The notes beneath the pieces are model-generated. The model had not been told where the DNA came from. It saw only the letters and a list, made by a program, of their open reading frames with translations, and ran no database searches. Shown piece by piece: positions 42,124-63,428 of a stretch of DNA of 64,000 bases. The stretch is from Rummeliibacillus pycnus (GTDB lineage Bacteria; Bacillota; Bacilli; Bacillales_A; Planococcaceae): assembly GCF_002884495.1 (NCBI RefSeq), contig NZ_KZ614145.1, positions 2,122,423 through 2,186,422 on the forward strand, given 5' to 3'. Position 1 is the first letter of the stretch; the number at the start of each line of letters is the position of its first letter. The position numbers were made by a program, and so were the translations under genes.

Positions 42124-44292
42124 ATGAGTAACATTTGGAGAATTTATCTAAACGATTTAAAAAGTATCCGAACAAATTGGGTATCAGCTATCATAATATC
42201 TGGTCTTATCATATTGCCATCCCTTTACGCATGGTTGAATATTGCTGCTTCCTGGAATCCCTATGGACATACAAATCAAATTCCAGTTGGAATTGTCAAC
42301 GAAGATACTGGAGCAACCGTACAAGGAAAGACGTTTAATGCAGGTAACGAACTAATTAGCCAATTACAAAATAATCATGACATGGATTGGCAATTTACCA
42401 ATCGTCAAAAAGCAATCGAACAGTTAAATAATGGTGACTATTTTTCTGTCATCATTATCCCTAATAATTTCTCGCATGATTTAGCTTCTGTAGTAAATTA
42501 TAATCCTCATAAAGCCCAACTTGAGTATTATGTAAATGAAAAGATTAATTCAATCGCACCTAAAATTACTAGCAAGGGTGCTAGTGTACTTGTTGAATCA
42601 ATGAGTAGCCAATTTATCGGGACAGTTAATGAAATCATTTTTGATATGTTTAATCGCATTGGTATCGAAATGAAGAGGGATTTACCCGATATTGAAAAAT
42701 TCAGGGATGTTGTTTTTGCACTTGAAAATGATTTGCCAACGATATATAAAAAATTAGAAACTGCTCAGCAGAATATAAATGATGCTAGTCAAATTATTTA
42801 TTTTGCAAAAAAGGAAATTCCTAAAACTAAGTCTTTAACCTCACAAGGACTAACTACTGTCAATGATACACTTAGTTTCATCAATCAAGCCGAGACGCAA
42901 CTAAACACAATTAGTCCTCAAGTCAAAAAAGATATGCAAACCGTACAGGAAATTGCAACAAATGCTAACAAATTTCTAACCCAGTTAAATCAGGAAAATA
43001 TTAGTTTTACAGAAATTAAAGCTGTGAAAAAAAACTTGGATACACAAGTTTCAGATGCAATTGATAAAGTCTCTTCACTCAACCAGCTACTACTTTCACT
43101 TAAACAATACAATCTAGAAAATAATATTGCTACAAATACAAATACTTTAGATCAAGCATTATCTCAAACAGAAGAAACTAGAAATTTATTAAACGACGCA
43201 CAAACAACTGCACGTAAAATAGATGCAAATTTTAGAAATAAAGAACAAGAAATTATCAATACGATGAATCAATTACAACAAATCGCTTCACGTACATCTA
43301 CTGGATTAGATCGTTTTATGCAAGAATATACGACAACTATAGAACCGACAATCTATGAACAAGTCAATCGCGCAAAACAAACATTACTTAGTGCAAAAGG
43401 AGTTCTTACAGACTTACAGGGAACATTACCTAAGGTAGAAAACCTCCTCAATAATACAGATGGATTTATTAGTGATACACAAAAAGGCTTAAGAACTTTT
43501 ATTGGTGAATATCCATATATTTATGACAGAGTACACAGATTAGCTAATAAAATTCGTATTTTCGAAAAAGAGACAAATTTAAATAATATTATTCAATTAT
43601 TAATCAATAATCCGCTTGCTGAAAAATCATTCTTTGAAGAACCCATTAAGATGAATGAACATCGCGTTTTCCCCATAGAGAACTATGGTACTGGTATGAC
43701 ACCATTTTATTCAGTATTAGCTATATGGGTTGGCTGTCTTTTGTTAATTTCACTTTTATCTGTTGATACAAAGCAAGAAGATCATTTTGAGATTCGGGAA
43801 GTATATTTTGGAAAACTGCTTACTTTTTGGACTATAGGGATTATACAAACGATTATTATTGTTTTAGGTGATATTTTTATTTTAAAAGTATCTGCATATG
43901 ATCCGATTTGGTTTATTGTATTTGGTTTATTTATAAGCCTTGTCTTTATGTCAATTGTCTATACACTTGTTTCAGTATTTGGAGATGTAGGAAAGGCCTT
44001 AGCAATTATTTTGCTTGTTCTACAACTTGCTGGGTCAGGTGGAACATACCCAGTAGTTCTTTTACCTAAGTTTTTTCAATTCATAAATCCATTTCTTCCA
44101 TTTACTTATGCTATTTCATTAGCCAGAGAAGCTATTGGGGGTATTATTTGGTCAAAGGTTACACATGATTTAATTTTTTTATTTTTAGTATTGATTGTCG
44201 TCTTATTATTCGGAAGTATTTTCAAAAAACAATTACGCAAATTAACACAAAAAATGTTACGAAAATCAAGAGAATCTGGCCTTTTTCATTAG
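42124..44292 (+). CDS. yhgE: YhgE/Pip-type ABC-2 membrane protein
   Basis: 722 residues. One N-terminal membrane segment (about 20-40, SAIIISGLIILPSLYAWLNIAASWNPYG) begins a large extracytoplasmic region with long coiled-coil stretches (about 180-500), then five membrane segments fill the C-terminal third. This is the YhgE/Pip layout, related to phage infection protein and to ESX/type VII-linked EsaA. A transport role is assumed; the substrate is unknown. The ATG at 42124 follows AAAGGTGG. No TetR gene is adjacent, although yhgE homologues often have one. Confidence 0.85.
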   Translation: MSNIWRIYLNDLKSIRTNWVSAIIISGLIILPSLYAWLNIAASWNPYGHTNQIPVGIVNEDTGATVQGKTFNAGNELISQLQNNHDMDWQFTNRQKAIEQLNNGDYFSVIIIPNNFSHDLASVVNYNPHKAQLEYYVNEKINSIAPKITSKGASVLVESMSSQFIGTVNEIIFDMFNRIGIEMKRDLPDIEKFRDVVFALENDLPTIYKKLETAQQNINDASQIIYFAKKEIPKTKSLTSQGLTTVNDTLSFINQAETQLNTISPQVKKDMQTVQEIATNANKFLTQLNQENISFTEIKAVKKNLDTQVSDAIDKVSSLNQLLLSLKQYNLENNIATNTNTLDQALSQTEETRNLLNDAQTTARKIDANFRNKEQEIINTMNQLQQIASRTSTGLDRFMQEYTTTIEPTIYEQVNRAKQTLLSAKGVLTDLQGTLPKVENLLNNTDGFISDTQKGLRTFIGEYPYIYDRVHRLANKIRIFEKETNLNNIIQLLINNPLAEKSFFEEPIKMNEHRVFPIENYGTGMTPFYSVLAIWVGCLLLISLLSVDTKQEDHFEIREVYFGKLLTFWTIGIIQTIIIVLGDIFILKVSAYDPIWFIVFGLFISLVFMSIVYTLVSVFGDVGKALAIILLVLQLAGSGGTYPVVLLPKFFQFINPFLPFTYAISLAREAIGGIIWSKVTHDLIFLFLVLIVVLLFGSIFKKQLRKLTQKMLRKSRESGLFH

Positions 44293-44363: not shown

Positions 44364-44391
44364 TTGTCTTTTTCAAAATTTCTAGTATAAT
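44364..44391 (+). promoter_or_regulatory. Promoter of the structured RNA at 44.4 kb
   Basis: TTGTCT at 44364-44369, 16-base spacer, perfect TATAAT at 44386-44391. The first hairpin of the RNA starts eight bases downstream. Confidence 0.6.
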
Positions 44392-44397
44392 ATTATC

Positions 44398-44516
44398 TTA
44401 GGTGCCAAACCTATGTGATCGTTACTTGTAATGATCACAAAAAAGTATTCCTTTACGGCACGGATTGCCGGGAATACTTTTTCTTATGAGCAGGCAGATG
44501 AGCGCCTGCTTTTTTT
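44398..44516 (+). ncRNA. Unassigned structured RNA with tandem terminators
   Basis: About 119 bases with four hairpins in a row: TAGGT/ACCTA (44399-44413), GTGATCGTTA/TAATGATCAC (44415-44438), AAAAGTATTCC/GGAATACTTTT with an inner CGGCA/TGCCG helix (44441-44481), and AGCAGGC/GCCTGCT followed by seven T (44489-44516). A promoter precedes it, and no start codon with a ribosome binding site or gene follows on this strand, so it looks like a free small RNA. I do not recognise it as any riboswitch or sRNA family. Confidence 0.6.
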
Positions 44517-44520
44517 ATTC

Positions 44521-44703
44521 AAAAGGCAGATCCAAAAGGCAGATTTATTAGATTTTGTAGACTCTCTCCTAAACAAGTAACACCCCAAACTTTCTAACAA
44601 AATACTTTTCCTATATAACAACTGTTCATTCGATACATATTACCTTTTATATATTTTAACGTTGATATTATGAATTTTTTCGTGACCAAAAGGCGGCAGA
44701 TTA
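44521..44703 (+). repeat. Repeated GGCAGAT motif downstream of the RNA
   Basis: AAAAGGCAGATC at 44521-44532 and CAAAAGGCAGAT at 44533-44544 are a tandem repeat; AAAAGGCGGCAGAT recurs near 44688-44701, followed by a GCTGCCT arm that can pair with it. The same AGGCAGAT is in the last hairpin of the RNA at 44492. The rest of this gap up to the pit terminator holds nothing I recognise. Confidence 0.5.
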
Positions 44704-63320: not shown

Positions 63321-63428
63321 AAACAAAAGAAGCATCTCTACGAGAGATGCTTCTTTTCACAAAGGGGATGGGAGAAATGTTCACGTTCAAACAAAGGGGT
63401 GTATGTTTGTTTGTGATTTATTTCACAT
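63321..63428 (-). ncRNA. roxS: RoxS/RsaE small regulatory RNA
   Basis: About 108 bases on the minus strand. Two C-rich, single-stranded seed regions, ACACCCCTTTGTTTG and CCCATCCCCTTTGTG, and the phrase TTTCTCCCATCCCC between them match S. aureus RsaE and B. subtilis RoxS as I know them. The 3' end is a perfect 10-bp terminator (GAAGCATCTC and complement, 63329-63353) followed by TTTTGTTTTG. Its place between spxH and pepF agrees with the known locus. RoxS base-pairs with mRNAs of central metabolism and redox enzymes to block their translation. Confidence 0.9.
63411..63428 (-). promoter_or_regulatory. Rex-type operator at the roxS start
   Basis: ATGTGAAATAAATCACAA on the minus strand agrees with the Rex palindrome TTGTGAAATATTTCACAA at 15 of 18 positions and overlaps the predicted transcription start. 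Rex represses roxS in B. subtilis when NAD+/NADH is high. Confidence 0.65.

Follow-up and report, generated by a model that had tools for sequence, protein, structure and literature searches.

The 64-kb stretch of Rummeliibacillus pycnus DNA analyzed here (the window) encodes a small RNA with four hairpins, which is a standalone member of a structurally conserved family of Gram-positive bacteria whose members usually lie directly behind tRNA genes. The gene, its structure, the family, and the tRNA linkage are established by computation with high confidence. The original prediction had suggested a possible new trans-acting sRNA at this locus. The RNA is conserved and covarying, has a conserved promoter of its own and no Rfam family, and occurs in shifting gene neighborhoods. 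These features support the suggestion, and we infer from them that the standalone RNA likely acts in trans. The best explanation of the sequence comparisons described below, to which we give nearly an even chance, is that it may act in trans as an antisense RNA against 23S rRNA that is immature or exposed.

A promoter-driven RNA with four hairpins

The RNA is about 118 nt long (about 44399-44516, forward strand) and is preceded by a sigma-A promoter (44364-44391), with the -35 box TTGTCT at 44364-44369, a 16-nt spacer, and the -10 box TATAAT at 44386-44391. The gap between promoter and RNA is 7 nt. Promoter matches of this kind occurred six times in the AT-rich region, compared to 8.6 expected from shuffled sequences, and this match taken alone is thus within chance. 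A similar promoter was found 5-7 nt before the RNA in 29 of the 29 genuine standalone relatives examined, and the promoter claimed earlier is thus confirmed.

Hairpin 1 (44399-44413; UAGGU-GCCAA-ACCUA) forms the 5′ end of the RNA, whose predicted start is at about 44398-44400. According to the fold and the alignments, the stem of hairpin 2 (44414-44439) is variable with compensatory changes. It contains the G-U pair that had been named as suggesting selection for structure. Hairpin 3 (44440-44482) consists of an outer stem, a 4-nt one-sided bulge, a 5-bp inner stem, a CGGAU loop, and a T-tail. Hairpin 4 (44488-44511) and its T-run constitute an intrinsic terminator (44488-44516), and its loop contains GAUGAGC, which is invariant in 27 of 27 standalone four-hairpin copies. 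Four consecutive hairpins, the last two of them T-tailed, are what had been predicted, and the fold agrees; a terminator scan calls only hairpin 4. The minimum free energy is −50.0 kcal/mol, compared to −28.1 ± 3.4 kcal/mol for shuffled sequences (z = −6.5), and none of 200 shuffles was as good. A pseudoknot between GUGCC in hairpin 1 and GGCAC in hairpin 3, seen in the window, was rejected because relatives differ (CGACUCGG, GCCGG).

The upstream gene encodes a YhgE/Pip protein (TIGR03061/TIGR03062) and ends at 44292. As predicted, no ORF follows on the same strand and the downstream gene is convergent; it is phosphate-transporter (Pit) like, with a PitA match below the NCBIfam cut-off. No conserved ORF was found inside the RNA: the ATG at 44431 reads beyond the terminator, and in the alignment of relatives the hairpin sequences differ freely among species. 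A start-stop ATG-TGA behind hairpin 1 was rejected since the ATG is not kept in relatives. No tRNA gene was found in the 64-kb window, and its copy is thus standalone.

Two further features of the window were recorded. Right behind the terminator, at 44521-44544, a short AAAAGGCAGAT repeat occurs twice in direct orientation; it was not seen in relatives. At 63326-63426, on the reverse strand, the window contains the RsaE/RoxS sRNA (Rfam RF01820, 92.7 bits). This match overlaps one to rli61 (RF01485, 56.2 bits), and the two Rfam families seem to cover one RNA.

Conservation and covariation in Planococcaceae

The search set comprised 261 genomes of one order (a single family, Planococcaceae judging by the named matches). 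Using blastn, the window RNA was matched in 84 genomes, mostly in single copy. A four-hairpin covariance model (R2), built from three sequences of the window's genus, matched 121 of the 261 genomes and 16 of the 19 genera. In the R2 alignment, hairpin 1 is invariant, and the other stems are variable and compensated. The sequence GGTGCCAAA is kept in 38 of 38 genuine copies of the R2 set. When the alignment was fitted to the model, 93.3% of the cells were paired, 31 of 32 pairs were changed on both sides, and covariation reached 0.598, compared to 0.175 for shuffles and 0.059-0.106 for slid pairs. A MAFFT alignment of tRNA-linked copies, which was not structure-fitted, gave 99.6% paired cells, with 8 of 14 pairs doubly changed. 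The conservation and covariation check that the original prediction had proposed thus found the RNA conserved in Planococcaceae, with covarying pairs.

R2 matches beyond the family across class Bacilli (L110, L112-L116) were rejected as chance terminator matches, and the low-scoring L097, L101, L208-L210, and L225 were excluded from the evidence as false or doubtful. No match resulted when phage and plasmid sequences were searched by similarity to the window RNA, and the matches of a short-pattern search of viral contigs were mostly chance.

Related RNAs lie directly 3′ of tRNA-Val(GAC) and tRNA-Lys(CUU)

The weaker R2 matches start directly behind a tRNA gene, which ARAGORN identified as tRNA-Val(GAC). 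A model of this three-hairpin tRNA-linked form (R3), with which standalone copies score too, matched 169 of the 261 genomes of the order plus an Exiguobacterium-like family. The position as a tRNA 3′ trailer thus holds for the family and not for the window copy. A tRNA-anchored pattern run over named genomes matched 113 stretches, and genus names were taken from the 80 of these 113 that were listed. Among the matches listed, the RNA is located directly 3′ of tRNA-Val(GAC) in the sister genera Sporosarcina, Planococcus, and Paenisporosarcina, in Planomicrobium, Viridibacillus, Chryseomicrobium, Tetzosporium, and Exiguobacterium, and in Bacillaceae, for example Cytobacillus, Sutcliffiella, Halalkalibacter, Domibacillus, and Alkalihalobacillus; by name, these matches comprise about 11 Bacillaceae records and many from Planococcaceae and Exiguobacterium. 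Matches of the pattern in other phyla look like chance and were rejected, no tRNA being present where this was checked.

In the tRNA-linked copies, no CCA is encoded behind the discriminator base. Bacillus tRNAs without an encoded CCA are expected to be cleaved by RNase Z behind this base, and hairpin 1 would then form the 5′ end of the trailer. The promoter start of the standalone form and the expected RNase Z cut would thus yield RNAs that begin with the same hairpin. In the tRNA-linked form, the loop of hairpin 2 is an invariant GGAAC (L211:4715-4802, L258:6342-6383, and other copies; alignments A7 and A8), and the terminator of this form is equivalent to hairpin 3 of the standalone RNA.

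A looser tRNA-anchored pattern, applied to 100 Bacilli genomes, also matched in another family, where the hairpin follows tRNA-Lys(CUU). The same search gave one further tRNA-Val(GAC) with the hairpin, the remainder being decayed. The tRNA-Lys-linked RNA is also present in viral contigs, in one Enterococcus phage record, and in Enterococcus plasmid records, and intact tRNA-Lys(CUU) together with the RNA was seen in an E. faecalis record. The second hairpin differs in this form, and hairpin 1 is the only part common to all three forms. Rfam gave no match for the tRNA-Lys-linked RNA either. Separately, we noted that Enterococcus-type prophage contigs and phage or plasmid records (L495-L510) carry a tRNA-Lys(CUU) 3′ half joined to an RNA with GGGUGCCAAACCC; L510 contains the whole tRNA. 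These look like attachment-site copies.

Copies in mobile elements

Six loci (L211, L212, L213, L215, L253, and L262) contain two to three tRNA-linked copies within 1.6-14 kb, the extra copies mostly behind truncated tRNA-Val 3′ ends. In L262 (Sutcliffiella), an integrase-like C-terminus runs antisense across one RNA copy, and in prophage contigs tRNA 3′ halves are joined to the RNA. The tRNA-Val(GAC) and tRNA-Lys(CUU) genes look like attachment sites, with a core that includes the RNA. Duplication of such sites could be the origin of the free-standing copy.

The truncated tRNA ends that recur with the RNA a few kilobases away in several genomes, the adjoining integrase-like sequence, and the copies in prophage contigs and in phage or plasmid records would also be expected if the RNA were a tRNA 3′-processing or terminator element that was spread via attachment sites of integrative elements and had no regulatory role of its own. 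We consider this very unlikely, since standalone copies are located far from tRNA genes and have conserved promoters, a fourth hairpin, and an invariant loop, and since related genera end the same tRNA with a plain terminator.

Relocation of the RNA to unrelated gene neighborhoods

We searched for tRNA-Val(GAC) in 17 genomes with the standalone form and found it in five (G147, G258, G018, G059, and G237). All five genes lack the trailer RNA, and inspection of the downstream sequence revealed a short terminator-like hairpin in four of them. In G237, the tRNA was called by ARAGORN, and neither R2 nor R3 matched there. A search of the window's own genome with a Sporosarcina tRNA led only to tRNA-Thr and not to tRNA-Val(GAC). 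Both the standalone and the tRNA-linked form occur in Viridibacillus (G259).

Standalone copies are located at yhgE/pit-like loci (in the window's genus and in g7), at panBCD-dinG (panD-dinG), at fumarase/MFS loci, and at others; outside the window, these gene names are our reading of the encoded proteins. The occurrence in several unrelated neighborhoods disfavors cis-regulation. Regulation of pit or yhgE in cis was rejected because the neighbors change among relatives, as was a riboswitch, attenuator, or T-box leader, since the next gene in the window is convergent and the relatives share no constant downstream gene. The RNA has moved: standalone copies have a promoter of their own, and the tRNA-Val(GAC) genes found in such genomes lack the trailer RNA, which argues that its job is independent of the tRNA. 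Thus, relocation provides good indirect evidence for a function in trans. The direction of the move was presumably from tRNA trailer to free gene.

In another genus (g11; L077 5000-5095 and L092 4959-5058), the four-hairpin RNA is accompanied by a promoter-driven three-hairpin copy with a CGGAACA loop. This copy adjoins the same upstream genes as the window locus and is possibly an intermediate between the forms.

Hairpin 1 is complementary to helix 89 of 23S rRNA

In hairpin 1, the 13-nt AGGUGCCAAACCU is the exact reverse complement of AGGUUUGGCACCU in the 23S rRNA of all 12 rrn copies of the genome. We take AGGUUUGGCACCU to be at about 2488-2500 (E. coli numbering, anchored at A2503, G2505, and U2506), in the 3′ strand of helix 89 (H89) leading into the peptidyl-transferase loop. 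The match was noticed after the fact, as minus-strand 23S matches in a pattern search whose hits were mostly chance. Of 854 hairpin-shaped 13-mers in the window, one matches rRNA in this way, and it is hairpin 1. The predicted duplex with 23S rRNA has −24.4 kcal/mol, compared to −19.2 kcal/mol for the best of 2979 control stretches. An exact rRNA complement beyond chance, as is characteristic of an rRNA antisense, was thus found.

The element common to all forms is GGUGCCAAA(CC) of hairpin 1. Every genuine copy retains 10 nt or more of the 23S complement, and GGUGCCAAA is present in 38 of 38. Where the loop of hairpin 1 is longer, the extra bases are located only behind GGUGCCAAA, as expected of a linear pairing element, and the retention of hairpin 1 alone in all three forms is as expected with an invariant target. 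The GGGUGCCAAACCC variant has a changed outer stem pair, which preserves the hairpin and abolishes rRNA pairing at that position, and this argues that the hairpin itself matters as well. Covariation between the RNA and its presumed target is uninformative, since the 23S segment is invariant. The GGAAC loop of the tRNA-linked form, for which we found no convincing rRNA complement, counts against pairing with 23S rRNA.

A second contact may be provided by the loop of hairpin 4. The only Watson-Crick site for GAUGAGC in 16S and 23S rRNA is 19 nt from the hairpin 1 site, and a random 7-mer would have so close a site with a probability of approximately 0.6%. If one G-U pair is allowed, hairpin 4 matches the other strand of H89 almost as well, and the order of the two 23S sites is permuted relative to that of the RNA elements that would pair with them. 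This second contact is therefore ambiguous.

The loops GCCAA, CGGAU/GGAAC, and GAUGAG might instead pair with mRNA leaders or sRNAs, as in an ordinary trans-acting sRNA, and the 23S match would then be coincidental. Such an sRNA would be in keeping with a gene that stands alone between its promoter and terminator, with the accessibility of the loops, and with the shifting neighborhoods, and 3′ETS-leuZ is a precedent for a tRNA-trailer RNA that sponges sRNAs (PMC8383071). We regard this explanation as rather unlikely. The core is constant from Planococcaceae to Enterococcus, a range that is probably wider than that of usual mRNA target sets. Apart from the 23S genes and the RNA itself, the genome contains three 10-nt complement sites (GTTTGGCACC), all within long open frames. 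Complementarity to RoxS of the same genome, the sole sRNA compared, is not meaningful (at most 7 nt), and a role as a RoxS sponge was rejected.

CsrA sites are GGA motifs in hairpin loops, and the loops ACGGAU and CGGAACA contain GGA. Hairpin 1 and/or the GGA loops could be recognized by CsrA or by a Khp-type protein, which would be sequestered or guided; KhpB binds some tRNA precursors in E. faecalis (PMC10117718). However, many tRNA-linked copies have no GGA left in hairpin 3 (CGAAU, CGUAU) and there are at most two such loops, for which reason a CsrB/RsmZ-type CsrA sponge was rejected. The Enterococcus form has no GGA loops, and CsrA is missing from both E. faecalis and E. faecium (PMC10117718). 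In addition, a hairpin 1 loop of varying length with a constant GGUGCCAAA is easier to reconcile with base pairing than with binding of a fixed loop by a protein. Recognition by a protein thus appears improbable.

Pairing with 23S rRNA would depend on access to H89, which is buried in mature ribosomes and finished 50S subunits. In late 50S intermediates of B. subtilis, H89 is immature and not yet visible (PMC12560758), and the target would therefore be accessible during assembly. Altogether, we judge it a little short of evens that pairing with 23S rRNA is the function of the RNA.

A possible link between tRNA maturation and 50S assembly

The preferred reading, antisense pairing with 23S rRNA, leads to the following scheme, in which transcription, processing, rRNA pairing, and its consequence are all deduced from sequence. 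The window RNA would be the standalone form of a family that is produced elsewhere from the 3′ trailers of tRNA precursors, those of tRNA-Val(GAC) in Bacillales and of tRNA-Lys(CUU) in Enterococcus. Where the RNA is linked to a tRNA, RNase Z would cut behind the discriminator base and free the RNA with hairpin 1 at its 5′ end; in the standalone form, the promoter would set the transcription start at the same point. Hairpin 1, via GGUGCCAAA, would pair with the complementary 3′ strand of H89, and in the standalone form the GAUGAGC loop of hairpin 4 would pair nearby, so that a segment of the peptidyl-transferase core would be bracketed. The likely substrate would be pre-50S particles or exposed 23S rRNA, H89 being among the last helices to fold, and the RNA could serve as a chaperone, a checkpoint, or a brake in assembly. 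That an RNA freed from tRNA precursors or transcribed from its own promoter pairs with H89 and thereby connects the processing of tRNA with the assembly or activity of the 50S subunit is a tentative proposal, which we hold to be possible and somewhat doubtful.

These findings add an unnamed, structurally conserved RNA family present across several families of Bacilli. They tie tRNA genes to small RNAs, a tRNA trailer also existing as an independent gene, and the tRNA-linked copies reveal cargo of integrative elements at these tRNA genes. If the proposal is true, the peptidyl-transferase region, the catalytic center of the ribosome, would have a natural antisense RNA, and one could test directly whether tRNA maturation is linked to assembly of the large subunit.

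Comparison with known RNA families

In agreement with the lack of a known family claimed at the outset, Rfam 15 gave no family at gathering score for any form tested. The nearest matches, ncr982 (RF02454; 22.1 bits against a gathering score of 50, mainly in the terminator hairpin) and the 23S-methyl motif (RF01065; 17.9 bits against 50, mainly in two generic hairpins), were rejected as sub-threshold. No description of the RNA was found in the literature searched, which included the main texts of two enterococcal sRNA maps.

The closest parallel in genetic context is 3′ETS-leuZ of E. coli, an RNA from the 3′ spacer of a tRNA precursor that sponges RyhB and RybB (Lalaouna et al. 2015, as described in PMC8383071). 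Like it, the family described here is carried as a tRNA 3′ trailer, and release by tRNA maturation is expected. In contrast to 3′ETS-leuZ, it is linked to other tRNAs, differs in sequence and phylum, and has conserved covarying hairpins; it also exists as a standalone promoter-driven gene, and its evident complement is 23S rRNA, with no match to RoxS. The RsaE/RoxS sRNAs (RF01820) resemble the window RNA in being promoter-driven, of similar size, and from Firmicutes, whereas the window RNA is unrelated to them in sequence and structure and lacks the C-rich loop motif. With the archaeal and eukaryotic C/D and H/ACA s(no)RNAs, it shares a short element exactly complementary to rRNA of the large-subunit functional center. 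Unlike these, it is bacterial and ends in an intrinsic terminator, no C/D or H/ACA boxes were seen in it, and we know of no modification enzyme that it guides.
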